DNA of 64,000 bases, from positions 1 through 64,000 of the forward strand of contig NZ_BSOS01000094.1 in NCBI RefSeq assembly GCF_030160635.1, read 5' to 3'. The first letter of the stretch is position 1. Each line of letters opens with the position of its first letter. Positions 10,816-27,785 of this stretch are shown piece after piece. Source of the stretch: Acidocella aquatica (GTDB taxonomy: Bacteria > Pseudomonadota > Alphaproteobacteria > Acetobacterales > Acetobacteraceae). The notes under the pieces were generated by a model. That model was not told the origin of the DNA and did not search any database. It was given only the letters and a program-made list of their open reading frames with translations. A program made the translations under genes and the position numbers.

Positions 10816-10832
10816 CCCGCAATGTCTCTCCC

Positions 10833-13817
10833 GTGATCACCACCCCGCGTGAACGCGCAGTCCGTCTCGCAGACCGGTGTCTTCACTTCGGCCGATTGCC
10901 GGAGGGTTTGGCCGAGACTGCTGGAACTGTCGTTGCCATTGCCCTGCACAACCAGGGAGCCGAGCTGCCCCAAGCGATTTTGTCGGTTTTAGAACAAGAT
11001 ATTGCCTCGGAAACGGTGGCGATCTTAGTGCTCGATGATGAATCAACCGACGATTGGCGCGAATGTGCCGCCGGGTTACTGGATCACCCGCATGTAGCGA
11101 TCGCGCACGGATGCTGCGGTTCGGCAGCGCACACCCGCAATGCCCTTCTCGATCTGGTAGATGAGACATTTCCTCAAGCGCGCTGGGTGGCGCGGCTAGA
11201 TGCTGATGACCGTTTGGCGACCAAAAGTTCACTGCGCAACATGGTGGAAGCCGGCGATCGCGGCGTCGTCGATTTCGTTCTTGGCAGCAATTATCTACGT
11301 CAAGGGAGCGAGATGATCGGCAGCCTGAATCGCGCCGACCCCGAGGTGTTGCTCGATCGCGAGCGCCTGACTTCGTTCGTCAGCGCATTCTGCGCGGGCG
11401 AGACAGAGCATGAATTGCCCTCTTGTAACCTCCTGCTCCGCGTCCGCTCCCGGATCCGCTATCCGCTGACGCGCAGCGCCGAGGATCATTGGCTGGTCGC
11501 CGGGTTGCTGATGTTCAACGCGGATCGTGGTTGTGTAGTCTCGGAACCTGCCTATGCAGTCTATTCGATTGGTGGCCAAGCAACTCGGCACAACCGAGCT
11601 GATAGCGCCTGGAGTCATACCCGCATGCGCCTCAGTAGTGCCGTGCGGCTTTGGCGCGACGTGCTCCAGAGCGGAAATCGTGTACTGGGTTGGGGAAATG
11701 AAGGCGTCGTCTGGAAAGAGGCGCAGGAGATTCATAAGCGTTTCTATCCAGGGGTCATGACGGAAGACCAACTCGTCACCATCAAGCAGCTAACAGAAAA
11801 AACGCACGGGTCCATCATCCCTTTCAGTATATGCCCAAGCTCTCCTGACGGACCGGTCATCAGCATGGCCAAAATCGCGCTGACAGAAATGTCGGGACTG
11901 TTGGCGCCAGAGACGTTACGCGCGTTTCTGGTAGCGGTTTACGATGCAGAGGTTGTTCCCAGTAATATCAAACGGGACAATATCAGACTCAATGAACGCG
12001 GAGCGCTTGTCTATATCGATATCGGCCAAGATATTCACCCGCTGTCCGTGTCGCGGTTTCTTGATTGCGCCGCCCGGCTTTACGCCATTACCATTTTGGG
12101 CTGGTCTGACTTTGAGCTGGCCCGACGGCGGACTTGGCGCACAGCGCTGGAGGGACTCTCGACACTCGATGGGTTTGCTGAATTCTACCGTAGCCTGATT
12201 GTCGGGCTCCATCCGGTCTGTTCTCCCTCCGAGCAGCCCCACACGATGCTGTTCCAACATGATGATGTGACGCTACTGATCAAGAGTTGCCCGCAAGACG
12301 AGGCAGTGTTGACTGCGCAGGTCAAACATATTGGTGGCGGGCTGTGCAGTAATGCGAAGTTTGCCCGCCGCATTCTGCTGATCGATCCTTATCCGGGGCC
12401 ATATCTGCGGCAATATGCTGCGGGCGATCTCAAGCGGTTACTGGAGACGGCTGATGAGCTAAAGAGTGAAGGCTGGCTCGACGATGTATGGGTTGCACCT
12501 ACGGCCTCGGAAGAAGTGGCCGAGCTATATCAGAGATGGTTCGGCATTACTGAAACTTGTCACAGCCACACGGTTGAGGGGGCACCCCTTTTCTCCCAGC
12601 TTTGGGCGTTTGAGCGGATCGATACACGGTTCGTTCTGCAAATGGATATCGATGTGCTCGTCGGCTTAGCTGATGCCAAACATGATGTTGTCTGCGACAT
12701 GAAAACCCCCTTCGGCACGCAAACAGTGTGGTGTGTTGGTTTCAACATTCCGAAGACGGCGTCTGAATTCCGCGCCTATAAGAGCACCGAGGGCGGATTC
12801 GCGCCAGAAATCCGGATGGGAATGCTCGATATGCCCCGTATTCTGACACGCCGGCCATTCGAGAACCCAGTCCAGCTAGAACGGCCTGTACGGATGTGGC
12901 ATCGTGTGCTCGAGCACGCCCAACAGCACAATGGCATGCAAAGCGTACGGGGCGGCGATCCACGGAGTTTTTACGTTCATCCGCGCAATGAGAATAAGGA
13001 TTGGTCCAAGCTTGCTATGGTGCGTGACCTCATCGGTCAGGGCATCTACCCGTCCGAGCAGACGGAAAAATGGGATCTCGATATCTCAGCTCAATGGAAA
13101 TATCAATCTCGTAGTGAGGATATCATCTTCCTGCTACTCGGGCGGAATACCCAGCCTGAGCAGCTTGCCCGCTGCATCCATTCCCTGGCGATGCAGACGT
13201 GGCAGGAGTTCGGGATCATCGTGATCGAGGATGCCGGTGACCGGGGAGCGGCCATGCCTGTGCACAATTGGTTAGGGGGATTACGCGCCCGAACGACAAT
13301 CATCCGTCGGCCAGAGCGGGTCGGGTATATCGCTAACTTTCAACTCGCAGTGCGTGACATCTGCACACGCTCCGACAGTCTAATCGTCGTACTCGACCAG
13401 GACGATGCACTGATGCGCGATGACGTGGCATGGCGACTCTGGCATGCTTGGCGTGAAGGTGCGGATCTGATCAACGCACCCATGTTCCGGCCCGACAAGC
13501 CGCTCGCACTCTATCCGGTGTGTCATTCGCAACCACGCCGGCGCGGTGGTGGCAATGTGTGGGCCCATCTGCGGGGTTTCCGCAAGGCACTATTTGAACG
13601 GATTCCTGAACAGGCACTGACCCCGCCCGGGGGAGTTGATTGCCTCAGCGACTATCTGACGATGGTGCCTATGGCGGAACTAGCAGAGAAGCCGGTGGCG
13701 TTGGAGGATGGTTATTATTATCTGCATGATCGCGGTGCCTACTCGCCCGACCGGAAACAGCGCGAAGCGGAGTTGAAGTTGTGGCTTTTCACCCAGATGG
13801 AATTGTCTGGCGCATGA
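10833..13817 (+). CDS. Multidomain GT2 / kinase-fold / GT-A / GT2 fusion protein
   Basis: About 994 aa and four recognisable parts. Residues about 25-240 form a GT2 domain (VVAIALHNQGAELPQAILSVL, VLDDEST, RLDADDR). About 290-480 read as a protein-kinase fold: a Gly-rich loop LGWGNEGVVWK, a catalytic-loop-like SNIKRDN and a DFG-like IDIG. The usual catalytic Asp of HxD aligns with Asn in SNIKRDN. About 510-760 look like another GT-A domain (RRILLIDPYPGPY, FVLQMDIDVLVG). About 770-994 form a final GT2 domain (LLLGRNTQPEQLARC, VLDQDDALM). The start is uncertain: the frame is open well upstream, but GTG 10833 is the first start after the preceding gene. No membrane helix. I know no characterised protein with this order. 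Confidence 0.8.
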   Translation: MITTPRERAVRLADRCLHFGRLPEGLAETAGTVVAIALHNQGAELPQAILSVLEQDIASETVAILVLDDESTDDWRECAAGLLDHPHVAIAHGCCGSAAHTRNALLDLVDETFPQARWVARLDADDRLATKSSLRNMVEAGDRGVVDFVLGSNYLRQGSEMIGSLNRADPEVLLDRERLTSFVSAFCAGETEHELPSCNLLLRVRSRIRYPLTRSAEDHWLVAGLLMFNADRGCVVSEPAYAVYSIGGQATRHNRADSAWSHTRMRLSSAVRLWRDVLQSGNRVLGWGNEGVVWKEAQEIHKRFYPGVMTEDQLVTIKQLTEKTHGSIIPFSICPSSPDGPVISMAKIALTEMSGLLAPETLRAFLVAVYDAEVVPSNIKRDNIRLNERGALVYIDIGQDIHPLSVSRFLDCAARLYAITILGWSDFELARRRTWRTALEGLSTLDGFAEFYRSLIVGLHPVCSPSEQPHTMLFQHDDVTLLIKSCPQDEAVLTAQVKHIGGGLCSNAKFARRILLIDPYPGPYLRQYAAGDLKRLLETADELKSEGWLDDVWVAPTASEEVAELYQRWFGITETCHSHTVEGAPLFSQLWAFERIDTRFVLQMDIDVLVGLADAKHDVVCDMKTPFGTQTVWCVGFNIPKTASEFRAYKSTEGGFAPEIRMGMLDMPRILTRRPFENPVQLERPVRMWHRVLEHAQQHNGMQSVRGGDPRSFYVHPRNENKDWSKLAMVRDLIGQGIYPSEQTEKWDLDISAQWKYQSRSEDIIFLLLGRNTQPEQLARCIHSLAMQTWQEFGIIVIEDAGDRGAAMPVHNWLGGLRARTTIIRRPERVGYIANFQLAVRDICTRSDSLIVVLDQDDALMRDDVAWRLWHAWREGADLINAPMFRPDKPLALYPVCHSQPRRRGGGNVWAHLRGFRKALFERIPEQALTPPGGVDCLSDYLTMVPMAELAEKPVALEDGYYYLHDRGAYSPDRKQREAELKLWLFTQMELSGA

Positions 13818-14622
13818 GCGCTGCGGCAAATAGGGCCGATTGACAGGCGCGGATGCGTTGGGAAAGTGTATCGATGGTGATGGCGCCACGCTGATCATAT
13901 AGCCACCAGTTTGGTGTCTCGCGTATGCCGCGCGCCAAATGGAAGCACTTCTCGAGCGCCTCAATATGTGAAGCTTTGGCAGAGATATATTCAGGATCGG
14001 CCCGTAGCGGGATGGTCAGAATTTCGGCAACATCGTCCAACCTTCTGGTCTGGCAAGCGGAGGCAAGCGCAGTCAGTAAATCCAGGGATGACAAAGCGTG
14101 GGATGAATCCTGAAGTGGCTTCATTGAGGGCTGCATCAGAGGCCAATCCCATGCAGCAGGCGGTGCCGTAAGCCAGCGCGCGAATGTGTGTCGCCGCTCG
14201 CCTAACCAATTATGGTACATGGCGGGTGGCGCGGCGCGCGTTTCTACATAACCATCCCGCCGCAGAGATGGGTCAAAATAGATACTGCGGACCTGGACGG
14301 CAATGTCGAGTTCCCATAGCGCATGCAGGATGGTGAAGCCGGTGGACGGCCAGCATCCGAGTGCGGCTTCATATATGCGTGCTGTGTGGTGACTCGCGCT
14401 GCGCAGCCTGTCCACAAAATCGTCAGGTCCCTCTCCGGTGACTTCGATTTTCGAACCCGCAGTACCGGCACTGCGACAGCTGACTATATCAAGATGCCAT
14501 TTAACGGCACTTGGCGGCTTGCGCCCGTTAAAGGTGATGCATATGTCGACAGGTTTCACCGAGAGGGAATGGGGAGTTCCATTCCCTGAGACAAGGCATA
14601 TCAAAGAGTTGACCGAAGCCAT
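13789..14622 (-). CDS. Possible GT29-like glycosyltransferase
   Basis: A 277-aa protein on the opposite strand whose end overlaps the end of the GT-kinase fusion by 29 bp. The region VDICITFNGRKPP, then the element WPSTGFTILHALWELDIAV, resembles the L- and S-type motifs of GT29 (sialyltransferase-like) proteins, where a PSTG-containing helix lines the donor pocket. The similarity is weak and read by eye, so the family is tentative. The C-terminal third is alpha-helical and not recognised. The location beside three glycosyltransferase domains supports a role in the same glycan pathway. Ribosome binding site upstream is weak. Confidence 0.5.
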   Translation of the reverse strand: MASVNSLICLVSGNGTPHSLSVKPVDICITFNGRKPPSAVKWHLDIVSCRSAGTAGSKIEVTGEGPDDFVDRLRSASHHTARIYEAALGCWPSTGFTILHALWELDIAVQVRSIYFDPSLRRDGYVETRAAPPAMYHNWLGERRHTFARWLTAPPAAWDWPLMQPSMKPLQDSSHALSSLDLLTALASACQTRRLDDVAEILTIPLRADPEYISAKASHIEALEKCFHLARGIRETPNWWLYDQRGAITIDTLSQRIRACQSALFAAALMRQTIPSG

Positions 14623-14660
14623 TTCGCATCAACCTAACAGTGTTCTTAAAAATGGAAGAA

Positions 14661-17174
14661 TTACCAGAGCCCCCCCAAACGAAGTTCTTCATGCCAGTGC
14701 TCGTATAGCTTTGCAAAACGCATCATGATTGCTGTGATGGTTGCAATTCGTTGATCGCTATAATTCTCTGTACAATTATTCGATAGATATCTATTGTCCT
14801 TTACTTCTCCGGCTTCATTTCTGACCGGAACGGCCTCTAGCCAGTGCGGCCACTCGTCAACGGAAATGAAAGACGCTCCAAGTATGCTCTTCGAATTAAT
14901 GCCATAATTACTTTCTTCAGCGATCTGCACGGAAAGTTTTTTTCGAGGTGCAACGTTACCATCGGCACGATTAGCCTCCAAGGGCCAAGCGCGCAGATTA
15001 CCGATAGAGTTACACCAATCTTTGACACTCTGTGGAATGCTCCACTTACCACTGAAGAAGCTCTGCGGTAGAATGTGGTCGAAGTCCCACGGACGATTCT
15101 TGTCATCCATCATTTCTGGTAGGGATGGATCATAGTCCTGGTACCAATTGTGTAACTCAGCTCTTTGGGCGTAAGTCAATACGGTTGACTTGCCTCCCCA
15201 CAAGGTATCGAGGAAATGTACTGCAGCCCGTTTGACCAGAGAATCGGTGTCCTCCAGATCTTCTTCGTTATTTGTTGTATTGGCGGTATTTCGCCATCCA
15301 TTATACATGTCACGGTTTGACTTCTCCAGCAGGGGAGAAAATTGGTCGTACCACCAATCCTTGTCGGTCCAGAAGCTTCCTTTGGGGAAATTGACCGTGG
15401 CCTTGTCTTGGGTCTGCTTCGTGCGTCCATCTTCACGAAGGAAACGATTGCACAAATCGAAGACAACATTGGGAGCTGGCAATGGTATCATGTTGATATC
15501 GGAACGCTCAGAAAGCTGACATGCTGCCTTAAAACGGGTTTGATTGAAGCGATCGAGAAGTTGCTTTTCATTAACATCTTCATCAAGGCTTTTCCAAATG
15601 GCTGCACATGCCTTGCTCTTATTGGGAGCGAACCAAGCTATCGCCGTAAGGAAGCCGAGCGTGCGCCGATGGACACTTTCGGAGATTTGTTCGACGCCAA
15701 TTTTTACAGCATTTAGCCGGTCCAACCAGCGCATCAGGAGCAAAAAGACGTCAGGTGAATGCTGAGCGATATCCACGGCCTGAGCGGGCAAAAGGCGGAA
15801 GGCCCTCTCGATTTTGCCGTTTGCCTCCTTAGGGGGCAGGGCCAGAAAATTCCATGCCTTGGTCAAGAGGTCCGCGGCGTTGGTATCAAGAAATTCTTTT
15901 AGCTGGCCTCCGAAATCCGTGTGGTTCGGATTGTTCCCCTTCAATAAGTTGCGGAATTCGCTGACGCCGGGCATGGATGGCATTGTGGCGTTGCCGTCTC
16001 CAGGCCGCCGGCCATGGCGGGCCAAGACTAGACGAACGCACATTGCAGCTATCCTGGAAGGAAGCGCCGGTAGGTTCGGCAAATTCTGCATCCATTTTGC
16101 CACGTCGGGCCATTGGGCTTTGATAAGTGAATAGACCAACTCCTCTCCAGCCAATGGCGTCCCCGCCGCGTTAAGGCGAATGAACAGTAGCTCAATGGCG
16201 TCCTTGGCATCTTCAGCAGACGTGGAGCGATGGGGACCATCATCGCCAACTTGCTCAATATCAACTGTAAGAGCAGGTACGCGGTATCGACGCTGACCAA
16301 ATGAAATTGTATTGAATGCGCCCATGATGCGACGTAATTGTTCATACGATGGTGATGTGGGGCAATCGAATGCCTCTTGCAGGACCTTTTGCTGGGCCTT
16401 AAAAGTATTTTGCGCATCCCTTACCAACTTGTTGTCTTCATCTGAAAATTTTTCTTCTTTAGAAAAAAGAGGAAGGGAACCAAGATTATTCCGCAGGGAA
16501 GTGCACGCGGCCTCGATAGCGTTGGGATGGGCAAGTACCGCCTGGATCATCGGGGCTACAGGTAAAGGTGCATCCGCATCCCACGGCCACGTCTTCCAGA
16601 GCGCGATATCACTCGGCTTGGAAAGCAAGCTATTATGCGCGGCCTGATAAGCGCAAAGTGCCGCTCTGATAGCACTGCTCGAAAGTGTCTCTTGGGGATT
16701 GTTTCGGCGGTATCCCCAGGGGTGGGCTCGGGTGAGGACGCGAAAAACGAATTCCAGCGGGCGATTTTTGGGTGGGGTGGAGAGATCAACCCATAACGCG
16801 CCTTTTGCCTGGTCATCGCAGCCCGACCAGATATCATAGAAGGCAAGGGCAATGGCAGTGGCTCGCTGCTGACCATCAAGAAGCAAGTGAGTGCCTATTT
16901 TTTGCCGCGCGCTCTTTTGTTGATACTTATAACTTTGACGCGACAGTCCGTCATTGGGAGGTGATATAGTGAAGGCACCTATGGGAAAGCCGCGTAGAAT
17001 AGAGTCCCATAATTCCTCTGTCTGATGAACCTTCCATACTGCTCCTCTTTGTAACGCGGGCAAGTCAGCGACTATTCTGCCCTTTCGAGCGGGCGCTTTG
17101 TCAATTTGCCAACCGGCAATTTCGGAAAGATCGAGAAAAAAGGCCGTCGAGGATAAGTAGTTTTGAGTGTCCAT
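14661..17174 (-). CDS. DUF262 / DUF1524-type HNH protein (GmrSD-like)
   Basis: An 837-aa protein with an N-terminal DUF262 domain (ALQRGAVWK, then the signature DGQQR at about residue 100) and a C-terminal HNH region of the DUF1524 type (WDFDHILPQSFF followed by CNSIGNLRAWPLE, about 695-740). In GmrSD-like type IV restriction enzymes these are the nucleotide-driven sensor and the nuclease that cuts modified phage DNA. ATG 17174 has AGGA ten bases upstream; a TTG two codons earlier is possible. It follows the AddA-like gene by 40 bp on the same strand, so it is probably the last gene of the 26.4-14.7 kb operon. Composition is slightly more AT-rich than the genes before it, so it may have joined later. 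Confidence 0.85.
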   Translation of the reverse strand: MDTQNYLSSTAFFLDLSEIAGWQIDKAPARKGRIVADLPALQRGAVWKVHQTEELWDSILRGFPIGAFTISPPNDGLSRQSYKYQQKSARQKIGTHLLLDGQQRATAIALAFYDIWSGCDDQAKGALWVDLSTPPKNRPLEFVFRVLTRAHPWGYRRNNPQETLSSSAIRAALCAYQAAHNSLLSKPSDIALWKTWPWDADAPLPVAPMIQAVLAHPNAIEAACTSLRNNLGSLPLFSKEEKFSDEDNKLVRDAQNTFKAQQKVLQEAFDCPTSPSYEQLRRIMGAFNTISFGQRRYRVPALTVDIEQVGDDGPHRSTSAEDAKDAIELLFIRLNAAGTPLAGEELVYSLIKAQWPDVAKWMQNLPNLPALPSRIAAMCVRLVLARHGRRPGDGNATMPSMPGVSEFRNLLKGNNPNHTDFGGQLKEFLDTNAADLLTKAWNFLALPPKEANGKIERAFRLLPAQAVDIAQHSPDVFLLLMRWLDRLNAVKIGVEQISESVHRRTLGFLTAIAWFAPNKSKACAAIWKSLDEDVNEKQLLDRFNQTRFKAACQLSERSDINMIPLPAPNVVFDLCNRFLREDGRTKQTQDKATVNFPKGSFWTDKDWWYDQFSPLLEKSNRDMYNGWRNTANTTNNEEDLEDTDSLVKRAAVHFLDTLWGGKSTVLTYAQRAELHNWYQDYDPSLPEMMDDKNRPWDFDHILPQSFFSGKWSIPQSVKDWCNSIGNLRAWPLEANRADGNVAPRKKLSVQIAEESNYGINSKSILGASFISVDEWPHWLEAVPVRNEAGEVKDNRYLSNNCTENYSDQRIATITAIMMRFAKLYEHWHEELRLGGLW

Positions 17175-17214
17175 GGTCAATTTTTCCTAAATGATCCCTT
17201 CAGAGGACCTCTGA

Positions 17215-20200
17215 TCACTTTGATTCTGATTGTCCGGAATGTTTCTTTATTAAAGCCACTTTCCCCAACACCGGAAAATGCACCACCATCGCGGTCACGG
17301 GCAGATTCCATGCTGCTTCCAGCACTTCCTTGTAGATTATCAGTTGCGGTAGATAGTGCAGCGCCCGGGCGGCGGGGTCGCGCCCCGGATAGCTCTTGTG
17401 GTCAATGAGGGCGAGAGCACCGGAATGCCGGATCAGGCAATCAGTACGGCCGTGCACTTCCTGGCCGCTCTCCAACCGGTATTGCACCGGCCATTCGGGG
17501 ATGACCTCGGCGTCGGCACCATAATGTTCGCGGATGAAGCGCCAGAAGCGATCAGCTGCCTCCAGGCAATCCTCTGGCGTCAGATCACCCTCCACCTCGG
17601 CCAGCATTTTTGCGGCAATGGTCCGGCGCTCGATTGTCTCCCGCGCAGGATCATCAGCGGCCAGGAAACGGTGCAGCGCATCGCCCACCTCGTCGCGCGC
17701 CGCGCCGCCGGCATGGCGCAGGCGGGGGCCAAGATCGATGACCTCGATCACTGCGCTCACATCCCCCTCGGCGGTGCTCGGTGTCAGGCGCAGCGGTGGA
17801 AAAATGGGGCGCGGTCCGGCAGGCCAGAGCAATGTCGTCACCTTCTTGAGGACGGGCAGCGGGGGCGCTTCCTCGGCCTCCGCAACATCGGCGGCAAACA
17901 CGGGCAGGCTGACTTCGTTGTAGGTCAGCTCTCCCTGGCCAGCCGGTAATTTCCGAAGCGCCGCCGCCAGACCGGGCGCGTAGCCTTCCAGCCAGCTTGG
18001 CATGCCGGGATCGAGTGCCAGCACCAGCACATCGCGCGCGCGGGTCATGCCGACATAGCCAAGCCGCACGTTCTCGCACCCGCTTTGTTTTGCCGCTGCC
18101 GCCAGTTCGGGCGAGGCCGCCTCGCGCATCTTCATGGGGATGTCCTTGCTGCGCCCGGCATAAGGCCAGGGCCAGTAGCGGACCCAGCGTCCGGCCAGCG
18201 GGGCGGCGGGGTCTAGTTCGCCACCCTCCGTATCAACGCTGACCTTGAACGCCGAAGCGGGATATTCCTTGTCCGTCTGCGCCATCACCACCAGCGGCCA
18301 TTCCAGCCCCTTGGCCTTGTGGTAGGTGAGCAAGGTGACGGCATCCCCGCCCTGGGAGGCGGGCTGCGAGGGCGCTTCCGGCAGTGCCCCCAACCAGGCG
18401 GCGAAGCCACCTACAGTCGCGGCGCGGTGCAGATTGTTGCAGGCATCCTCATAGGCTTTGGCCTCGCCGAACAATGCCTCGATATTCGCCAGGCGCTGCC
18501 GGGGCGCAGGCCAGCGCGCCAGCAGCGGCATGATTTCGGCTGCCGACAGCGCCACCTCCAGCGCCGCCGATGGCGGCAGGCCGGCCAAATCCGTTTGCAG
18601 GGCGTCAAGCGCAGCCACGCGGGCGTCGGTCAGCTTCTGCTTGGCCAGAAGCTTGTCCAGCCATTCCTCATCGCCGCCTGCCAGATGCGCGACTTGTGCT
18701 TCCGCCAGATTGTCGCGCGGGTCGGCCAAGCGGCGCAGACAGGCCAGAGCCAGGCTCACTTCCGGTGTCTCCAGCAACCCGCCTCGTGCTGCCGCTACCT
18801 CCACGCCGCGCTGCCCGAGCGCCGCCGCCAATATGGCGACCGATTTGTTATCCCGGCACAGCACCGCCACATCGCCAACGCGCAACAGGCGAGTCTCCCC
18901 AGTCTGCGGGTCCTGAATCATTGGCCGCTTGGGTGCTGCCAGCAAGCCGGCGATCTGCGCCGCCAACGCTTCTAGCCGTAATGGAATCGCGCCTTTGGGC
19001 AGGCGCCAGACATGCAGCGCAGGCCCAGTTCCCGGCGGATCGGTACGGTGCGGCGTCAGCGCCACAACCTCCGCCGTCATGCCTTGCTGCGCGAAAGTTG
19101 GGACAAAAATGCCGTTCACCAGATGCACCAGATCGGGCCGGGAGCGCCGCGAGGTGGAGAGTATGTTCGCCTTGTCCGGCTTGCCGCCCAGGCTGCGCAG
19201 TATCGCGTCCATCAGCGCCGGGTCGGTACCGCGGAAGCCATATATCGCCTGCTTCGGGTCTCCAACCCAGACCGCCCGCTTGGCTAGCGCACCCAAGCGC
19301 AAAAATAGGGCCAGTTGCAGCGGGCTGGTGTCCTGAAACTCATCCACGAACAGCGTATGCAGGCGCTGCCCCAGCTCGATGCTAATGTCCGCGTTGGTCT
19401 CCAGCAGATCGAGCAGCATCGTCTCCTGGTCGGTGAAGTCGATCAGCCCGGCTTTGCGCTTGTATTCGGCATACAGCGCGAGGGCGGACTCTGCCGTCTC
19501 GTAGCAGACGCTCAGCATGGTGGTGATGTCCACATGCAGCCGCGGGTGGCGGTCATGCGCCGCCGCAGCCTCGATGACCGCCGCGAAATCGGCTCCGCGC
19601 GCCACGGCCGGGCCGAGCGTGGCCAACGCGGCCCAGTCGGCCCAGGTGAGGAAGCGGCCTTCCTGCGGCGCGAAAAGCGGGCGCATGGTGCGGACGGTAT
19701 CGAGCGCGCCAAGCGTGTTCTTCTTCTCGGCGCCGAGATCCCATTTGGCGGCCACAGCGAGCAAGCGAGTCATGGCCTGCTCCAGCGCCGCATCCAACGC
19801 CGCTGCCCCGGCCGGATCGGGCGTTCCCAGCATTCCCAGCACACCGGCCAAAGCGCGGGTCTCGCTCAGGCGCAGCGCCGCTTCATCCAGCCGGTTGGCT
19901 CGCGCCGCGCTGACGATCTTGCGTACCGGCTCATGCCAGTCGCCGCCATTGGCCTCGCCGGAGAGACCCAGCCGGAATGCCACCGGGGCGATGCGATCCT
20001 CCGCTGTACCGGCGGCGTCGCCAAAGGCGATGGCGAAGGCTTCCGCCTCGCCGGTTTCGTCCAGCACCGTAAGGTCCGGGGAGATGCCGGCCTCGAAGGC
20101 GAATTCGGCGAGCAGCCGCCCGCACACGCTGTTCACCGTGCCAAGCAGCGCCTCCTGCATGGCCAGAGCGGTTTCGCCCTGGCGCGCCGCGATTAGCGCC

Positions 20201-20373
20201 GTCTGCACGCGCAGCTGTAGCTCCGACGCCGCCTTGCGGGTGAAAGTGGTGGCCAGCAGCCCGGCGGGCGGCACGTTGTTGTCCAGTACCTCGCGCTTGA
20301 TGTCTTGGGTGATTCGCCAGGTCTTGCCAGAGCCGGCCCCGGCGGTGACGATACTGAGAGCGGGTAGGCTCAT
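17215..20373 (-). CDS. AddA-like UvrD helicase with PD-(D/E)XK nuclease
   Basis: A 1052-aa superfamily 1A helicase. Motif I TAGAGSGKTW is at residues about 8-17, Walker B FVDEFQDT at about 343, then motifs around WVGDPKQAIYGFRGTD, TYHKAKGLEWPLVV and GYVGMTRARDVLVL. The C-terminus carries a PD-(D/E)XK nuclease (HGRTDCLIRHSG, ALIDHKSYPG, about 985-1005). This is the architecture of AddA of the AddAB double-strand break processing enzyme. ATG 20373 follows GGGAG by seven bases and overlaps the stop of the AddB-like gene (ATGA), so the two are translationally coupled and probably form one complex. Presence in an operon with AAA, WYL and DUF262 genes suggests DNA degradation in defence rather than housekeeping repair (inference). 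Confidence 0.9.
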   Translation of the reverse strand: MSLPALSIVTAGAGSGKTWRITQDIKREVLDNNVPPAGLLATTFTRKAASELQLRVQTALIAARQGETALAMQEALLGTVNSVCGRLLAEFAFEAGISPDLTVLDETGEAEAFAIAFGDAAGTAEDRIAPVAFRLGLSGEANGGDWHEPVRKIVSAARANRLDEAALRLSETRALAGVLGMLGTPDPAGAAALDAALEQAMTRLLAVAAKWDLGAEKKNTLGALDTVRTMRPLFAPQEGRFLTWADWAALATLGPAVARGADFAAVIEAAAAHDRHPRLHVDITTMLSVCYETAESALALYAEYKRKAGLIDFTDQETMLLDLLETNADISIELGQRLHTLFVDEFQDTSPLQLALFLRLGALAKRAVWVGDPKQAIYGFRGTDPALMDAILRSLGGKPDKANILSTSRRSRPDLVHLVNGIFVPTFAQQGMTAEVVALTPHRTDPPGTGPALHVWRLPKGAIPLRLEALAAQIAGLLAAPKRPMIQDPQTGETRLLRVGDVAVLCRDNKSVAILAAALGQRGVEVAAARGGLLETPEVSLALACLRRLADPRDNLAEAQVAHLAGGDEEWLDKLLAKQKLTDARVAALDALQTDLAGLPPSAALEVALSAAEIMPLLARWPAPRQRLANIEALFGEAKAYEDACNNLHRAATVGGFAAWLGALPEAPSQPASQGGDAVTLLTYHKAKGLEWPLVVMAQTDKEYPASAFKVSVDTEGGELDPAAPLAGRWVRYWPWPYAGRSKDIPMKMREAASPELAAAAKQSGCENVRLGYVGMTRARDVLVLALDPGMPSWLEGYAPGLAAALRKLPAGQGELTYNEVSLPVFAADVAEAEEAPPLPVLKKVTTLLWPAGPRPIFPPLRLTPSTAEGDVSAVIEVIDLGPRLRHAGGAARDEVGDALHRFLAADDPARETIERRTIAAKMLAEVEGDLTPEDCLEAADRFWRFIREHYGADAEVIPEWPVQYRLESGQEVHGRTDCLIRHSGALALIDHKSYPGRDPAARALHYLPQLIIYKEVLEAAWNLPVTAMVVHFPVLGKVALIKKHSGQSESK

Positions 20374-22940
20374 GCGCTGACTCCCACGCCACAAAGGGTT
20401 TGATAGTCGCAGAAGGTGCAGGGAGGCGGGATGTCCAGCTGTGGACCGTCATCCTCGTCATCATCGCCTGCCACACCGGCGGCGATGATGCGGCCGTCTC
20501 GCAATTCGGACAGTGCCTCGCGGTAATCAGCCAATGCGGCCTTCCAGCTTGCCGCGAGATCGGCGCCGGGCACCGTTGCGTCCGGGAATGGATAGGAATC
20601 CGCTGCCAGCAGCCGGAGCTTGCGCAGCAGATAATACGCCGCCGTGGCTGACTCGCCGCGCCCCGCCACCAGCCAGGCATAGGCTGCCAGCTGCACGGCC
20701 GTGTTCTGCTCCAGCTTCTTGCGATACCAGCCGGAGGCCGACCATTTGGCGTCCAGCACCACATGCAACCCATCCGCCGGGCGGTGCAGTAGCACATCGA
20801 TGCGGCCCTGGAGTCGCCCCAACTTGCCTGGCAGCGGTTTCTCGAAGGCTCGCTCCGTGGCGGCCACCTGTAACCCCGCCTGCTGAATCTGGCTGGTGAG
20901 GTCAGCCATGGCCTGGCCGATGCGCCCTTTGGCGCGGGATTGGGTGGCCTGCATCCCGGGCCGTAGCAATGGCGCGGCTTCCTCGGGCAACAGCCGCTCG
21001 AACAATGCCTGCGCCTTGGCGGCGGCATCCGTGGGGCTGGTATAGCCGTTGGTGAGAACCTGGCTCATCACCTCATGCAGGAAAGTGCCGGTGAGCTGCT
21101 TGGCTTCGGGCAGCGTGGCCGGGCCGCGCGCGTAAAGCTTGGCGGCGTATTGCAGCACCCATTTCAGCTTGCAGCCGAGTAGTGTCTCCATGCCCGAAGC
21201 CGATTCCAGGTCCCGTGGGCCGACAAGGCCGGCCGGCACCAGCCAATCCCGGCGCGGGGCAGGCGGTGCTGCTGCTGGCACAATGCGGGAGGGCAGCTTC
21301 AGCCCCGCGAATACCCCGCCGGATTGCAGAGACTCCGCCTCCACCCAGGCCCGCCCGAGGCTCTCGCCAAAGCAGCCCTGCAATTCCGCCAGCAGCGGAT
21401 GCGCGCCGCCTTCCTCCATTGCGCCGCGCGGCGCGGTGATGACCAGGCGGCCAGATGTGAGGGTGACGGCGCGGCGTAGCCCTACACGGGCCCGGGCGGG
21501 CGCCAGTGCCTCATCCGACGCCAGGCCGTGCGTCGTCATCCAGCCTTGCTCCGCCATGCGCCAGGGCGAAGCCGCCTGCCCCTCGCCGCCGCCGAGCCAC
21601 CAGATGGTGGTGTCCGTGGTATCCAGCCGCGCGCCGGGCCGGGCGAAGAAGCGCCAGGGCGCGGCCTCGGCGGAAAGCAGCGTTACCGCGCCGGATGAGG
21701 CTGTTTCCAGCATGCGGCCGAGCAGCATGGCGTCCAGCACCGCCACGCCGCTGAGGGTGACTGCCTGCGCCAGAGAAGCGGCTGCTGCGCCTGCCTCGGG
21801 CATGTTGCGTTTGATCGCCCAGCCCTGCACCAGCCCACACAAAGTGGTGACGGCGGCGGCGGGAATCCCCTCCTCAGCCGTGAAGCGTTTTGGTGGAATC
21901 CAGGCGTCGATGGCCGCCAGCCTTGCCCGCGCCGCCGCATGGCGGGTGGCGCGGTCCAGCCCCCGCGCACGGTCGGCGCGCAGTTTTGCCCGCAGGGTCC
22001 GATGCCGCCCGGCACGGTAGTTTACGCCGCCATAGCCTGGGCTTTGTACGATGGCATCCGTGAGAAACCGGCAGGCGCCGCCGAGCGGATGCTGCGGCAG
22101 GGCTAAAAATTCCAGGGCGGCGCCAGCGTCGAACGGGTCCGACAACAGCGCCAGCCCGAGGTAGAGCAGTTGTGCGCCGAGATCCGCTCCTTCCAGCGCG
22201 GACGGGCGCGGCTGGTGCCGTGCGCGCAGTAGTGTCGGCAGCAGGCTGTCCTCGCCACCCAGCAGGGCCGCGCCGGGCGGCAGGCAGGGGAGCCACGCGG
22301 AAAGCAGGTTGGCCGTGGAGGCGGTGTCGCCCGTAAGCAGCGCCACGCTGCCATCGCCCGCCCAGGTGGCCGCCGGGGCGCCTGCAAGAAAGCGCCGCAA
22401 TGCCGCAAGGTCGCCCTTGGCGGGCGTTTCCGGCGGGGCGTAGGCGGTTACGTTAAGCTGGGTAAGCAGCTTTTGCCAGAGAGGCGGCCAGAGAGTTGCG
22501 GGCTCGACTAGGTTAAAGCGCGGCAGAAAGGGCGGCTTGCGCTGGGGCAATACCGCAATGACCTCACGCAGCACATCCGCCACGCCGCACGGCAAGGCCG
22601 GCAGGCTGGCGAGGTCCGCAATACGTGGCGGGGTGGTTGCATCCGCCGTGCCGTCCCATCCGGCGAGCAGCAGGGCGTCGCGCAAGGCCAGTACACGGCG
22701 GTCGGTGGCCCAGGAATCCACGGTGAAGGATTTTGACCAGAACCGGCCTTCCTGTGTGGCGATGGCGGCATGACAGGCGGCGATGCGGTTGGCCTCGGGC
22801 GTGGCGCGCGTATCCAGCCCGAGCCATTGGCCGAGCAAATCGAGGCAGCCGAGCGGTCCCACGATGGCGGTGAAAGGCGGCAGGCCAACCGGCGCGGGGG
22901 CGCCATCCAAAGACCAGCCGAGGATGAGGGTGGGGGTCAT
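20370..22940 (-). CDS. AddB-like PD-(D/E)XK nuclease with Fe-S cysteines
   Basis: An 856-aa partner of the AddA-like protein. The C-terminal nuclease shows GRIDVLLHRPADG and VVLDAKWSASGW (about residues 715-740) followed by QLAAYAWLV. Four cysteines fit the Fe-S nuclease fold of AddB and Cas4: one before the nuclease (LLGCKLKWVLQY, about 587) and three at the end (CTFCDYQTLC). The N-terminal part is poorly conserved and lacks an obvious Walker A, as expected for an inactivated helicase domain. It starts 91 bp after the WYL gene. Confidence 0.85.
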   Translation of the reverse strand: MTPTLILGWSLDGAPAPVGLPPFTAIVGPLGCLDLLGQWLGLDTRATPEANRIAACHAAIATQEGRFWSKSFTVDSWATDRRVLALRDALLLAGWDGTADATTPPRIADLASLPALPCGVADVLREVIAVLPQRKPPFLPRFNLVEPATLWPPLWQKLLTQLNVTAYAPPETPAKGDLAALRRFLAGAPAATWAGDGSVALLTGDTASTANLLSAWLPCLPPGAALLGGEDSLLPTLLRARHQPRPSALEGADLGAQLLYLGLALLSDPFDAGAALEFLALPQHPLGGACRFLTDAIVQSPGYGGVNYRAGRHRTLRAKLRADRARGLDRATRHAAARARLAAIDAWIPPKRFTAEEGIPAAAVTTLCGLVQGWAIKRNMPEAGAAAASLAQAVTLSGVAVLDAMLLGRMLETASSGAVTLLSAEAAPWRFFARPGARLDTTDTTIWWLGGGEGQAASPWRMAEQGWMTTHGLASDEALAPARARVGLRRAVTLTSGRLVITAPRGAMEEGGAHPLLAELQGCFGESLGRAWVEAESLQSGGVFAGLKLPSRIVPAAAPPAPRRDWLVPAGLVGPRDLESASGMETLLGCKLKWVLQYAAKLYARGPATLPEAKQLTGTFLHEVMSQVLTNGYTSPTDAAAKAQALFERLLPEEAAPLLRPGMQATQSRAKGRIGQAMADLTSQIQQAGLQVAATERAFEKPLPGKLGRLQGRIDVLLHRPADGLHVVLDAKWSASGWYRKKLEQNTAVQLAAYAWLVAGRGESATAAYYLLRKLRLLAADSYPFPDATVPGADLAASWKAALADYREALSELRDGRIIAAGVAGDDDEDDGPQLDIPPPCTFCDYQTLCGVGVSA

Positions 22941-23031
22941 CTGAAGGGTTGCTCCCGGGGCAGGCGTTTGCTGTTGCGGTAATGCCGATTGGCGCGGAAG
23001 GGCGCGTGCGGCACGCCTCTTTCTGTGACTG

Positions 23032-24060
23032 TCATTCAGCCATTTCCGCTTCCATGCCGCGCCATTCTCTCATCAATTCGACCAATCCATCCGGCTCGCA
23101 AATCTTTACCTCCCGCCCCCAAGTGAACAGATGCCACGAAAGTTCCAGCATCCCACCGCACCTGAATTGCACGATCAGCGTACCATCCTCCTGCGGTTCC
23201 ATCGTCTGGTTTGGATGAAATACCCACTCTGCCGCATCATTCGCCGCGCCCGAGGAGAACCGCAGCACCACATCCTGCGGCGCCTCCTGGAATACCCCGA
23301 ACGACCGCGCCGCGTAGGACGCCAGATCGAATTCCTGCGCGGGAAAATTTTCCTCCAGCGCCGAGACGTCGCTGATGCGGTCCAGCCGCCAGAGGCGCAT
23401 TTCCTCGCCGGTCTCGGTATGCGCCACCAGATAGGCCCTCCGCCCATAAAGCACGCCGTAGGGACAGATCACGCGCCGCCCAGGTGCTCGCGGTTCCGCC
23501 GGCCGGTAGGTGAGTTCAAGCTTGCGGAAGCCCAGAATGGCGGCGCGGATTTCCGTCATCATGGCGCGGTCGAGTTTCAGCCGCGGGCCGGGATGCGCGG
23601 CTGAGCCCTCGGCCCGCATCAGCGCCTCGATATCCGGCTCCGCCTGGCGCAACCTCGCCGGGGGCAGCAGCGCGCGCAGGCTCGCGGCGGCGTCGCGCAG
23701 ATCCGCGGCACGGGCGCTGTCGCCCTGGGTCGACAGATCGCGCGCCAGCCCTTCCAACGTAGCCAGCGCGCTCGGGGTGGGCGGCACCGGTGGCAGTACC
23801 CCTTGCGGCAGACGCCAGCGGCGCACGCGGCTGTCGTCGTCGCTATAGGTCAGGCCGGGGAACAGAATCGTCAGCTGGTCGCGCAGCCGCTCTACCGTGC
23901 GCCGCCCCACCTCCAGCTGCGTGGCCATCTCGTCCAACGTCAGCCCCATGCGGGAGCCGGAGAGCAGCAGGACCAGGCGGAGCAGATTCGTACTGGGTTC
24001 ATAGCGCATTACCGCAGGGTTGCGCGAAACCGGCCGTTTCGCAACCGGCAGTTCAACCAT
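23032..24060 (-). CDS. WYL-domain transcriptional regulator
   Basis: An N-terminal winged helix (SRMGLTLDEMATQLEVGRRTVERLRDQL) is followed by a WYL domain (GVLYGRRAYLVAHTETGEEMRLWRLDRISDVSAL) and a C-terminal WCX-like region (DVVLRFSSGAANDAAEWVF). WYL regulators sense nucleic acids or nucleotides and commonly control phage-defence operons. The ATG at 24060 overlaps the stop of the AAA gene by 8 bp and gives about 342 aa. A later ATG at 24009 (MRYEPSTNLLRL) is the more usual N-terminus for the family, and the frame is open back to 24081. Sites it might bind are the repeats near 26579 and 27075 (inference). Confidence 0.9.
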   Translation of the reverse strand: MVELPVAKRPVSRNPAVMRYEPSTNLLRLVLLLSGSRMGLTLDEMATQLEVGRRTVERLRDQLTILFPGLTYSDDDSRVRRWRLPQGVLPPVPPTPSALATLEGLARDLSTQGDSARAADLRDAAASLRALLPPARLRQAEPDIEALMRAEGSAAHPGPRLKLDRAMMTEIRAAILGFRKLELTYRPAEPRAPGRRVICPYGVLYGRRAYLVAHTETGEEMRLWRLDRISDVSALEENFPAQEFDLASYAARSFGVFQEAPQDVVLRFSSGAANDAAEWVFHPNQTMEPQEDGTLIVQFRCGGMLELSWHLFTWGREVKICEPDGLVELMREWRGMEAEMAE

Positions 24061-26182
24061 GACGAGCAAACCCGATGCCACGCGGCTTGCCCTCGCGCGC
24101 CTCCATCTCGGTTTCCAGCAATGCCACCAGACGATGCTCAGAGGGCGTCTCCCCCAGCACCGCCAGCCGCCGCGAGAGCCGGGTGAAATCCGCCGGGGTC
24201 AGCCGGTCCAGCCGCGCCAGACGTTCCGGCGGCTCCATGCCGAACACGTTGCGGAACAGCCGCAGGCTCTGCGCCGGGGCGAGATGGTCGAAATTCACCC
24301 GGATGAGGAAGCGGCGCAGGCTGGCGGCGTCCAGCCCCTCGGGCAGATTGGTGGTGCAGGCAAAAGGTTGCGGATGGCTCTCCATCCAGGTGAGCATCTC
24401 GTTCACCTGGCTCACCTCCCAGTTGCGCACCGCGCGGCCGCGCCCGGCGAGCAGGGAATCCACTTCGTCAAAGATGAGAAATTTTTGTGACTCCCGCGCC
24501 TCGGCAAAGGCGGCGGCGATGTTGCGCTCCGTCTCACCAACAAAACTGCCGAAAATGTCGGAGCCGCGCTTGTGCAGCACGCCCAGCCCCATGGCCTCAG
24601 CCAGATGCCGGGCGAAGGCGCTCTTGCCGGTGCCGGGCGGGCCGCTCAGCAGCAGCGAGACAGCACGCGGCGCACCGGGGCGGGCGAGGCGCGCCACCAG
24701 AGCCGGCAGGTCCATATCCGCGCGGCTCAGGGCGGGGTCGTACAGCTCCTCGCCGGGCGCGGCCTCCGGTGTGGGCATCTGCCCGTGGCCGATCGCTTTG
24801 GCCATGCCGCGCGCCACCAGTCGGGCCGTCTCCGCACGGCCATCCGTCAGCCGGGCTGCCCGCAGGGCGGTGCGCGCCACCGAGGGCGCCGAGGGGATCA
24901 GCCGCGCCAGTTCGCCGGCCGTGGCGGCATCCAGCACCACGCCCTCATTGGCGGCCAGCTCCTGCCACAGCTCGGCCCGGCGCGGCGTCTCAGGCAGTTT
25001 CACCTCGATGCAGAGGCTCATCCGCCGCAGCACGGCTGGCGTAAACGCATGGATGTCGTTCGCGGCCCAGATCATCGGCACTTTCGCCGTCTCCAGCAGC
25101 CGGTGGATAAAAATCTTCGGGTCCGGCTCGCGGTCGCGATAGCTCCCACGGAACAGATCCTCCGCCTCGTCGAACAGATACAGCGCCTGTTCACCGCCAT
25201 TCACGCGCTGCGCCAACAGCAGATCCGAGAGCCGCTCTCCCCGTGAAGGTTCGCCCCCGTTGCCGTCTGCTTCGCCCACAACATGCAGTTTGAATCCAAG
25301 CGCCTCCGCCAGCGCCGCGGAGAACTCCGTTTTGCCGGTGCCGGGCGGGCCGTAGAGCAGGATGTGCACGCCGCGCTCCCCGTCCGCCAAGGCGCGGCCG
25401 AGCATGTCGCGCGCCAACTCGCTTTCCCGCCCCAGATGCCGGAACGCCTCCCAGGGCAGTTTGGTGGCAACCGGGGCACCAAGAAGCTGGCTGCGCATAT
25501 CTTCACCGGTCTCGCCGCAGTTGAAGATCAGGTTGCGCACGCGCCCGGACATATGGATGTCGCCATCCTCGTCGATCCGGATGGCACCGGAGGCACACAT
25601 CAGCGCGTCGGGCCGAAAGCGCCGCGCCACCTCTTGCTGCGGCATATTGGTCAGAATTGCGAAATTGTCAGTGAAACGGCGGAGAGAGTTGGGCCGTTTG
25701 CGGGCCTGGGAAATCAGGTCGAACAGCCGTTCCATGGTGTTGTCGTGCCCATAGCGGAAGATGATGCCAAACAGCGCCGCATCCAGCTCATCAAACCCCA
25801 GCGCCGCACTCACCGCCGCGAGACCGGATGCAACAACGCCCTCGGGTGTGGGCTGCTCCAGCTGCAGCATCACCGCGTCGCGTAACCCCTTCCAGCGGCG
25901 GCGGCCGACCGTACCGGTAGGGGCGTTGCGCCGGTGCGACATCTCCGGCTGCGAGAACAGCTCATCGTTCAGGTTGAAGCGAGCCCGGTTATGCGCCAGC
26001 CAGCGCGTGAAGCTTGCAGCCTCCTCCTGCGCCGAATCCACGCAGCTCATGAAATTGGCAGCGTAACGGAGCAGCGCGGTGGTCTCGCAGGCACAATGCG
26101 CGAAGCCGGCAAACTCGGGCTCCTCCAGCTCGTCAAAATCATCGCGGATGCTGTCGAGCATTTTGGCCAGGCTTTTCGTCAT
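24053..26182 (-). CDS. Tandem AAA+ ATPase
   Basis: A 709-aa protein with two AAA+ modules. Module 1: Walker A GPPGTGKTEFSAAL (about residue 277) and Walker B LYLFDEAEDLF (about 336). Module 2: Walker A GPPGTGKSAFARHL (about 517), Walker B FLIFDEVDSLLAG (about 571) and a sensor/arginine-finger region with RRFLIRVNFD. An N-terminal ~250-residue region of unknown fold precedes them and may bind substrate. Double-AAA proteins usually form hexameric unfoldases or remodelling machines. Its start overlaps the stop of the 89-aa gene and its end overlaps the WYL start, so it is fully embedded in the operon. The specific family is not one I can name. Confidence 0.85.
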   Translation of the reverse strand: MTKSLAKMLDSIRDDFDELEEPEFAGFAHCACETTALLRYAANFMSCVDSAQEEAASFTRWLAHNRARFNLNDELFSQPEMSHRRNAPTGTVGRRRWKGLRDAVMLQLEQPTPEGVVASGLAAVSAALGFDELDAALFGIIFRYGHDNTMERLFDLISQARKRPNSLRRFTDNFAILTNMPQQEVARRFRPDALMCASGAIRIDEDGDIHMSGRVRNLIFNCGETGEDMRSQLLGAPVATKLPWEAFRHLGRESELARDMLGRALADGERGVHILLYGPPGTGKTEFSAALAEALGFKLHVVGEADGNGGEPSRGERLSDLLLAQRVNGGEQALYLFDEAEDLFRGSYRDREPDPKIFIHRLLETAKVPMIWAANDIHAFTPAVLRRMSLCIEVKLPETPRRAELWQELAANEGVVLDAATAGELARLIPSAPSVARTALRAARLTDGRAETARLVARGMAKAIGHGQMPTPEAAPGEELYDPALSRADMDLPALVARLARPGAPRAVSLLLSGPPGTGKSAFARHLAEAMGLGVLHKRGSDIFGSFVGETERNIAAAFAEARESQKFLIFDEVDSLLAGRGRAVRNWEVSQVNEMLTWMESHPQPFACTTNLPEGLDAASLRRFLIRVNFDHLAPAQSLRLFRNVFGMEPPERLARLDRLTPADFTRLSRRLAVLGETPSEHRLVALLETEMEAREGKPRGIGFARHG

Positions 26183-26448
26183 AGGCAGCTCCTGTTGGGG
26201 CGAGGCATTGAGGTGGGCACAGCCGGGTTATGATCGAGGACGAAAATCACGACGCCATCCTCGCGCTCACGGGAGGTGATGGTAACGTGCTCGCCTTTGA
26301 TGAGGGCGGTGACGGGGGTCACGCCGCCGGCCGCATGGGTAACAGCAGCGCGGAACACTGCTTGGGTCGCCTGGAAGTCCAGGCGTGGAAGCCGGCGCTG
26401 CGCCTCTGGTGTGAGGTGCAGCAGGAACGAGGCATAGGCTCTGAACAT
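26179..26448 (-). CDS. 89-aa hypothetical, first gene of the defence-like operon
   Basis: The ATG at 26448 follows AGGAG by six bases, and the stop overlaps the AAA start by 4 bp (ATGA), which argues strongly for a real gene. The protein (MFRAYASFLLHLTPEAQRRL) has a helical N-terminus and a beta-rich centre (VTALIKGEHVTITSREREDGV). It has no membrane segment or cysteine and is not recognised. It could be an adaptor or substrate-recognition subunit for the ATPase it is coupled to (inference). Confidence 0.65.
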   Translation of the reverse strand: MFRAYASFLLHLTPEAQRRLPRLDFQATQAVFRAAVTHAAGGVTPVTALIKGEHVTITSREREDGVVIFVLDHNPAVPTSMPRPNRSCL

Positions 26449-26547
26449 CGCAAACTCCTGATATGTCCCGGCCCGGCAGACAGAGTTGTCCTGTCGAGGC
26501 TAAGGCCAGAAACCAGAGGGACGCGATGGAATTGAGGAAGAGTGGGT

Positions 26548-26595
26548 TATGTCATGGGCATATAGATGACATACCTGTACGTCAGATGCGGACGT
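26548..26595. promoter_or_regulatory. Palindrome and repeat upstream of the AAA/WYL/AddAB operon
   Basis: TATGTCAT (26548-26555) and ATGACATA (26566-26573) form an 8-bp inverted repeat with a 10-bp spacer. It is followed at 26579-26595 by ACGTCAGATGCGGACGT, itself near-palindromic at its ends and repeated with one change at 27075-27091. Both lie 100-150 bp upstream of the first gene of the operon. They are candidates for WYL-regulator binding. Confidence 0.45.
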
Positions 26596-26993: not shown

Positions 26994-27074
26994 TGGAGAT
27001 TTCCTTCAGCAAGGTGCGGTGCCCGCCGCTGCCGTCGTGCGGGTTACGTCATGCGCAAGAGATGACACGCCAGC

Positions 27075-27091
27075 ACGTCAGATACGGACGT
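27075..27091. repeat. Second copy of the 17-bp repeat
   Basis: ACGTCAGATACGGACGT matches 26579-26595 with one substitution, keeping the outer ACGTC and GACGT halves. It sits just past the end of the exonuclease gene and about 80 bp upstream of the 34-aa gene start, so it could control that small gene. Confidence 0.4.
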
Positions 27092-27101
27092 ACTCCAGAC
27101 G

Positions 27102-27644
27102 CTACGTTTCGGGGCTCGCGCCTTGTTTCATTGCCAGCCATAGCGCCGCCAGGTGGCGCGCATCCGCGGCAGCCCGATGCGTTCTGGGAACGTCGCACGA
27201 GATTTTCTCCATTATGGCGAGGCAGTCTACCGCCTCCCACGCCTGTTCGCGCGCCACAATGCCGATGAGGGTATGCGCTTCCACCCGACTGACGGAAAAG
27301 CTGGGCTTTACATCAGCGGCCTCAACGATCATCCGCAACCAGTCGCCATCCCAGGCTGGGGCATCCGAGTAAAGGTCGCGGCCGCCAAGCGCCTCATTCA
27401 TGCGCCGCACAATGTCAGCCGGGGCGCTTCCCTCGGTATAGAGCTGACCGCAATTGATCCCATGAAGGCTCTCGGCTGCCTTGTCCCAGCAGGTTGCAAT
27501 ATGCCATTCCGGAGCCGGCCGAATGAGGTGGGATTCAACCTGAATTTCGCCAGTTTCGGGATCAGCGAAAGCCCAGCCGATCTCGATCGGCACGCCGTCA
27601 AGGCCAGAGGCTTCAATATCGTAGAAGACGGGAAGGAGAGACAG
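27102..27644 (-). CDS. DEDDh 3'-5' exonuclease-like protein, CTG start
   Basis: A DnaQ-fold exonuclease, 180 aa. The acidic ExoI motif is FYDIEASGLDG, a later DGDW is the likely ExoII aspartate, and HRAAADARHLAAL gives the DEDDh His and final Asp (HxxxxD). The first ATG/GTG start would lie after ExoI and remove the catalytic DxE. In frame, the only upstream start-like codon is CTG at 27644, with a perfect AAGGAG eight bases upstream and an in-frame stop just before. A CTG initiation codon is therefore the best reading. It may trim nucleic acids; no partner domain is fused. It lies between the defence-like operon and a HEPN gene. Confidence 0.75.
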   Translation of the reverse strand: MSLLPVFYDIEASGLDGVPIEIGWAFADPETGEIQVESHLIRPAPEWHIATCWDKAAESLHGINCGQLYTEGSAPADIVRRMNEALGGRDLYSDAPAWDGDWLRMIVEAADVKPSFSVSRVEAHTLIGIVAREQAWEAVDCLAIMEKISCDVPRTHRAAADARHLAALWLAMKQGASPET

Positions 27645-27785
27645 AGCGGCGGCTCCTTATTTTATGCTGCGCCAGTATAGCCGCTTCATTGCGATCTCCA
27701 AAACGCCGTTCCGCGAGCTCCTGTTGCCCCAGCGTACGACAGCTTGTTATGCTCCAGGGACCGTCCCCACCGGAGCGCGCCTTTC

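Follow-up and report, generated by a model that had tools for sequence, protein, structure and literature searches.

AddAB enzymes are repair enzymes in which AddA carries a UvrD-type helicase together with a PD-(D/E)XK nuclease and AddB carries a nuclease, the genes standing in the order AddB-AddA. As far as the published description goes, UvrD-Cas4 fusions join a superfamily 1 helicase to a Cas4-like nuclease in loci with type III restriction-modification (R-M) genes and WYL regulators, and the same account includes UvrD and Cas4-like genes that share an operon without being fused, chiefly in Clostridiales and in surroundings that the portion considered here does not call defence (PMC5704561). 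A survey of BREX systems describes auxiliary PD-(D/E)XK and HEPN effectors, its main text containing neither 'UvrD' nor 'AddA' (PMC12839542), and ARMADA is described as having a GajB-like UvrD helicase (PMC12458937). Here we analyse a 64,000-nucleotide stretch of Acidocella aquatica DNA (contig NZ_BSOS01000094.1, positions 1 to 64,000; "the window" denotes this whole stretch), in which six minus-strand genes at 14661-26448 include those for a tandem AAA+ ATPase, a WYL regulator, an AddB-like nuclease and an AddA-like helicase-nuclease. On the available description, UvrD-Cas4 fusions are the nearest described idea; they consist of one fusion protein, whereas the block has two large nuclease-domain genes and an AAA partner, AddA alone combining helicase and PDDEXK_1 domains and AddB being a second large nuclease gene. 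Our preferred reading, to which we give a probability of roughly 0.5, is that AAA-WYL-AddB-AddA forms the centre of a mobile defence module against viruses or plasmids, with exchangeable accessories.

Core proteins and the systems they resemble

The six open reading frames (ORFs) are present as first described, and the ORF list of the window bears out the tight packing (overlaps or gaps of at most 91 bp) claimed in the sequence-only reading: an 89-residue protein gene overlaps the AAA gene by 4 bp, AAA and WYL overlap by 29 bp, WYL and AddB are separated by 91 bp, AddB and AddA overlap by 25 bp, and a DUF262 protein gene follows AddA after 34 bp. The AAA protein (24053-26182, minus strand, 709 residues) matches PF00004 in two stretches (116 bits), and profile comparison with solved structures gave VCP/Cdc48 as its best relatives. 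Next comes a regulator with WYL and WCX domains in Pfam (23032-24081, minus strand, 349 residues, GTG start). The AddB-like protein (20370-22940, minus strand, 856 residues) matches PDDEXK_1 with 87 bits, has two weak matches among solved structures, and carries four presumed iron-sulfur (Fe-S) cysteines, C590, C841, C844 and C850, invariant in all six aligned sequences (window included). The AddA-like protein (17215-20394, minus strand, 1059 residues, TTG start, with an alternative ATG possible at 20373) combines a UvrD helicase (145 bits) with a PDDEXK_1 nuclease; its ATPase residues K24, T25, D351 and E352 and its nuclease residues H908, D985, D998 and K1000 are identical in 34 of 34 sequences, again counting the window. 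With the domains, catalytic residues and cysteines found, the earlier assignment of ATPase and nuclease motifs stands, and the AddB/AddA pair is predicted to be a helicase-nuclease with intact catalytic residues that would degrade DNA.

The pair shares its gene order and domain content with housekeeping AddAB, and AddB here has cysteines of the Fe-S kind; it differs in falling below the model cut-offs and in its sporadic distribution. Window AddA scores 163.4 bits against TIGR02784 (cut-off 860.75) and window AddB has no TIGR02786 match, while the same genome encodes, on contig G000:C5, an AddA that passes the TIGR02784 cut-off with 1066 bits, beside an AddB that passes that of TIGR02786 with 795 bits. 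In a comparison aimed at the helicase-like body of AddB, hhalign alignment with this housekeeping AddB gave the window-type AddB a probability of 41 and a diverged type, described below, 39. Because a separate housekeeping pair lies elsewhere in the genome and window AddA is far below its cut-off, we rejected the block as the housekeeping recombination locus, in agreement with the sequence-only reading.

That reading had also matched the gene order to no named system, and the AAA-WYL-AddB-AddA block is without a model in PADLOC or NCBIfam. None of the NCBIfam models listed for the block proteins reaches its cut-off. PADLOC matched its CRISPR-associated WYL model over nearly the whole length of the WYL protein and gave partial matches to GajB (helicase), IetA (AAA), Cas4 (AddB) and HEC-05 (DUF262). 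No description of the four-gene combination was found in the open literature searched, which is weak evidence of absence.

Four named systems were considered and rejected on the matches listed (at most 25 each for AAA and AddA). The UvrD-type helicase resembles GajB of Gabija, but the helicase parts alone match, with no OLD/TOPRIM domain or GajA. Both AAA stretches resemble IetA of IetAS, the second stretch best; the match reaches 87.2 bits against a cut-off of 510, no protease domain is present, and the block protein, unlike IetA, has two AAA domains. Azaca (ZacABC) genes occur beside relatives of the block, with DUF6361/ZacA following AddA in L050 and L097 and ZacB-like and SNF2 genes in L114 and, by custom profiles, in L206; none of the six window proteins matches ZacA, ZacB or ZacC. 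AddAB-like pairs stand beside brxL of type 1 BREX on a Haematobacter plasmid and in genome G532, and the block has no PglX, PglZ or BrxC core gene. The GmrSD type IV enzymes share both their domains with the DUF262 protein, which differs in being one accessory gene of the block and not its core.

Recurrence and rearrangement of the four-gene order

Comparison across genomes supports AAA-WYL-AddB-AddA as a recurring unit of four of the six genes. Window AddB, searched at E 1e-20 against 299 genomes of the order, matched five (own included in both counts), three of them in the window's genus, and all three share the order AAA-WYL-AddB-AddA. In G150 (L017) the proteins are 56-65% identical to those of the window and every gene lies in a single open frame; the four genes are nearly contiguous there and in the window. 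In G276 (L016) AAA and AddA are 95% and 86% identical, with three small ORFs, the first weakly UDG-like, between WYL and AddB. The WYL gene of G173 adjoins an AddB piece that stops at the contig end, and in G183 AddB-AddA is present, tblastn finding neither AAA nor WYL in the examined stretch. The same four-gene order was found in another genus, in G1054 (L249), with identities of 32% for AddB, 36% for AddA, 47% for AAA and 49% for WYL. AddB adjoins AddA in L010-L013, L016-L018, L175-L178, L194-L199, L201, L202 and L249.

Of the 245 genome-contig loci that AAA retrieved, the best 80 include 10 with a second, diverged type of AddB. By hhalign this type is related to the window type with a probability of 99.3 across 751 columns, most of its length; a C-terminal C..C.....C motif is present in 19 of 21 window-type ORFs and in none of 21 diverged ones (ORFs of at least 500 residues, some of them pieces). 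With this type, AAA-WYL-AddB-AddA lies on one strand in eight loci, plasmids counted (L015, L021, L050, L056, L073, L097, L100, L107). Genes are inserted after WYL in seven of these, L100 having no insert: an ADP-ribosylglycohydrolase gene directly follows WYL in six (L015, L021, L050, L056, L073, L097) and another ORF in L107. Split frames occur for AAA in L021 and L097 and for AddB in L107. Other arrangements include WYL-AddB-AddA divergent from AAA (L023, L069, L085, L086) and AddB-AddA convergent on AAA-WYL (L028, L068). An ADP-ribosylglycohydrolase gene likewise directly follows WYL in L114; Pfam, run on the protein from L050 and L114, showed it in both to be fused to a dual-specificity phosphatase domain.

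Searched independently of AAA, the diverged AddB was found on 11 plasmids. The 10 examined carry AAA-WYL (four), WYL without AAA (two), BREX-1 in the order pglX-pglZ-brxL-AddB-AddA (one), AddB-AddA-HEPN-DUF262 (one) or none of these (two). Its profile matched none of 385 genomes of the class, in a search run without a positive control. The predicted model of the diverged AddB has a predicted local distance difference test (pLDDT) score of 50.7, with 466 of 848 residues below 50.

Both trees point to a changing partnership. On the AddA tree (40 rows) the AAA-WYL label needs seven changes, at least four of them forced by starred branches, and on the AAA tree (97 rows) the AddAB label needs six. 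The AAA tree took AAA ORFs of at least 540 residues from 108 annotated loci and included 16 of 18 AddAB-labelled loci; L010-L013, L018-L020, L021, L064, L091 and L097 have no row, and L054 was scored without AddAB although its contig stops just after WYL. A first AddA tree left out L038, L080 and L084 (AddA 152-191 bits) and ORFs shorter than 900 residues (L086), and the second, with 40 rows, also L178 and L179. Since the labels change repeatedly, the two pairs have joined or parted repeatedly, and these sequence trees make repeated joining of AAA-WYL with AddAB likely.

Several observations weigh against the proposed module. The label changes may be gains or losses, which the trees do not tell apart, and the AddA tree is a quick one with several long branches, L249 among them. 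Both the WYL and the AddB gene of G276 have broken reading frames. AAA greatly outnumbers window-type AddB, being found (E 1e-50 or better) in 35 of 249 genomes of the family, own included, against five of 299 in the order for AddB. Twenty family AAA places, outside the own genome and G150, were examined with their flanks: 13 have WYL at most 300 bp from AAA, two more have it upstream at a distance of 468 bp, and one alone, G1054, has AddB beside AAA, so that AAA in the family is mostly without AddAB. The AddB profile matched five of 385 class genomes and 14 of 398 phylum genomes (own included); AAA stands beside window-type AddB in none of the four other class loci and none of nine annotated phylum loci, an annotation that left out three loci on short contigs (some 5 kb at most) plus one further match. 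The same holds for the four plasmid loci examined of 26 records. Of the best 80 genome-contig loci, 33 have WYL at most 300 bp from AAA and another 33 have no WYL within 8 kb, some of them on short contigs.

A WYL gene occurs within 4 kb of AddB in two of the nine phylum loci. ORFs f5 and f11 were disregarded because they probably only shadow the AAA frame. Relatives of AddB were absent from viral contigs (two queries), and phages gave one weak match. Nine of the 13 other phylum genomes with window-type AddB belong to a single family (f188) with small genomes of 1.6-2.3 Mb, in which five annotated loci (L195-L199) have AddB-AddA without AAA.

Such a distribution bears on a rival explanation, that AAA-WYL and AddAB-like genes are two independent defence units sharing an operon for co-expression, without joint action. 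Each pair does occur without the other, AAA-WYL is followed by other modules in other loci, and AddAB pairs lie near BREX and E1/ubiquitin-like genes. Yet the same order recurs with AddAB pairs far apart on the AddA tree, and the near contiguity of the four genes in the window and G150 also speaks for a common function. We hold two independent units to be a possible account, though one that is less likely than not.

A HEPN-like gene and a candidate operator

The sequence-only reading missed a HEPN-like gene outside its interval, a possibly co-regulating repeat and the exchangeable modules. The gene (27744-28448, plus strand, 234 residues as listed, start perhaps at 27786) is divergent from the operon, encodes the motif RNQLVH and probably belongs to the module. 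HEPN RNases follow the motif rule R-x4-6-H; R166 and H171 of this motif are invariant in four of four aligned sequences, and NCBI annotation names relatives of the protein HEPN. The predicted model is all-helical (pLDDT 69.9).

By tblastn, the relatives in L016 (93% identical) and L017 (71%) adjoin the AAA operon, and those in L021, L028, L039, L085, L103 and L015 are 45-63% identical. Because all eight loci came from AAA or AddB searches, plasmids were searched with the HEPN-like protein itself, giving 25 records of which 11, a non-random set with five already known as AAA/AddB loci, were examined. WYL lies within 3 kb in six of the 11, AAA or AddA within 3 kb in three more, and neither in two; for the six plasmids found through HEPN alone the corresponding counts are three, one and two. 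Of the 249 genomes of the family, seven carry the gene, the own genome counted; AAA is also present in three of the seven, in one case on other contigs.

The ~52-bp repeat has two copies between the 89-residue protein gene and the HEPN-like gene. Copy A (26544-26595, no strand assigned) lies 96-147 bp before the start codon of the 89-residue protein and is a candidate operator upstream of the operon that this gene forms with AAA. Copy B (27041-27092, no strand assigned) has its L016 counterpart directly upstream of the HEPN gene: G276 carries both copies, 495 bp apart, with the second 59-109 bp upstream of the HEPN ORF. Between copy B and the HEPN-like gene the window has a stretch of about 617 bp, mostly a 163-residue ORF, with no match in L016. 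A default-seed repeat search reported the pair in L016 and not in the window. The half-sites TGACRTA/TAYGTCA occur four times in 1295 bp, a count reached by none of 2000 mononucleotide shuffles, a test that is optimistic because the pattern was chosen after the repeat had been seen. Exact half-sites are absent near AAA in the scanned stretches of L035, L028 and L021, and those of L034 and L039 have isolated half-sites only.

BrxR is reportedly a WYL regulator in BREX. CapW binds palindromes over the -10 site (PMC9122588). On these two precedents, we infer that the WYL protein may bind at the ~52-bp candidate operator. Counting against the same module, on this side of the locus, are the optimism of the shuffle test, the absence of exact half-sites near AAA in the scanned stretch of L017, and the HEPN fold, for which a search with the model gave no PDB match under E 0.001 and Pfam gave no match.

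Two further observations concern these elements. In L210, L211, L213 and L214 the HEPN-like gene stands with a TM0106 RecB-like nuclease gene, with a WYL gene adjoining in three of the four, a second multi-gene neighbourhood sharing parts with the first. The 163-residue ORF between copy B and the HEPN-like gene (27102-27593, minus strand) has a very weak PRK07740 match, and its stretch is absent from G276.

Accessory genes, genomic surroundings and a proposed mechanism

As regards recurrence, the earlier proposal of a six-gene system held for AAA-WYL-AddB-AddA and was not supported for the remaining two. The DUF262 protein (14661-17180, minus strand, 839 residues, TTG start) matches GmrSD_N with 73.5 bits (cut-off 33.2) and GmrSD_C with 25.2 (cut-off 23), both over threshold. 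It has no match in L016 or L017, the two genus relatives, and window positions 8000-14700 match neither locus. No AddAB is annotated in the examined stretch around its Variovorax relative. It is a variable accessory and not part of the core. The 89-residue protein (26179-26448, minus strand) has no family match in Pfam, PADLOC or NCBIfam; a 92% identical copy occurs in G276 (L016) only, and the gene was not found in the other loci compared, on plasmids or in L249. A six-gene system in which both are obligatory would be in keeping with the tight spacing of the six genes and with other GmrSD_N proteins beside AddAB in L194, L196 and L207, but neither gene is conserved with the block, and AAA in the family is mostly without AddAB; we rejected the six genes as one unit and consider this version very unlikely.

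A defence role is suggested by association with defence genes. In L175 (G532:C10) a window-type AddAB pair follows brxL in a BREX locus with an Eco57I-type methylase gene nearby, and in L206 (Haematobacter massiliensis plasmid pOT1-2) a diverged pair follows brxL of BREX-1. Genes for HsdM (L198), SIR2 (L011), TIR (L204, L205) and LeoA (L202) lie beside or near other AddAB pairs. Where a part of the neighbours was tested, no defence-type gene was found among them in, for example, L176, L177 and L178, and the tallies of defence neighbours, compiled without a random-region control, likewise temper the case for defence. On the earlier question whether the block recurs in defence islands, its parts do recur near defence genes, and the contig carries conjugation genes.

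That contig, 197,969 bases long, is likely to be a plasmid or else an integrated conjugative element; the window encodes a HipA_C protein, a Mutator transposase, a ParB_N protein, a DUF3363-containing relaxase and a TrbE/VirB4-like protein. The relaxase and TrbE/VirB4-like genes, together with the repair function of AddAB enzymes mentioned above, would fit element-borne recombination or repair, in which the AddAB-like enzyme processes the DNA ends of the conjugative element. We consider this unlikely, given the AddAB relatives near BREX, R-M, SIR2, TIR and GmrSD-type genes, the WYL control and the separate housekeeping AddAB in the genome.

AAA-WYL also precedes other genes. It is followed by SNF2 or PLD proteins in some loci and by a methylase and an endonuclease in L098. 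In L034 (Acidiphilium), whose AAA is the nearest named relative of the window protein (58%), it is followed by PDDEXK_4, a Res-like ResIII protein, GmrSD_N and a DNA methylase, with no AddAB in that place. A broader reading would make the Cdc48-like AAA, as a protein-remodelling sensor, and WYL, as its regulator, the fixed core of a modular immune platform, one sensor driving many exchanged effector cassettes that attack DNA or RNA (AddAB-like, Azaca-like, type III R-M-like, Nmad, HEPN and ADP-ribosylglycohydrolase); we advance it tentatively and think it rather doubtful.

In the defence module that we prefer, the WYL protein would keep the operon low through the ~52-bp elements and release it on infection, by analogy with CapW and BrxR, and would probably control the divergent HEPN gene likewise. 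Together, AddB and AddA would form a helicase that depends on DNA ends and, with its two nuclease domains, breaks down the DNA of the invader. The double AAA+ protein of Cdc48 type may remodel proteins on the target DNA or license the nuclease, which is the weakest step of the scheme. DUF262 could serve as an optional type-IV-like endonuclease that creates ends for AddAB on modified DNA, and the HEPN-like protein as an RNase, likewise optional, that arrests the cell when degradation does not succeed. If this is correct, an AddAB-type DNA-degrading machine serves a dedicated, WYL-controlled immunity whose gene order is kept in distant relatives, and has also been added to BREX operons; bacterial defence would then include a Cdc48-like protein remodeller placed upstream of a DNA nuclease, and the locus would define a unit of four genes, to which a fifth probably belongs, together with a candidate operator.

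Some neighbourhoods deserve separate mention. In L010 and L012 the AddAB pair lies downstream of ThiF, with JAB in L010 and multiubiquitin in L012, and in L194 it lies downstream of an E1-E2-like protein gene, with a GmrSD_N/C protein also near, so that a link between ubiquitin-like conjugation and an AddAB-type nuclease is possible in these three loci. After the AddAB pair of L206, and in the same direction, come three f8-f18-SNF2-type genes, the last two of which are ZacB-like and ZacC-like in L114. In L045, AAA-WYL is followed by Nmad2-like (below cut-off) and Nmad3 proteins, both nucleotide-modification associated domains. Elsewhere in the window, the HipA_C protein (3688-5544, minus strand) has 619 residues; HipA annotated on the examined plasmid stretches has about 400.

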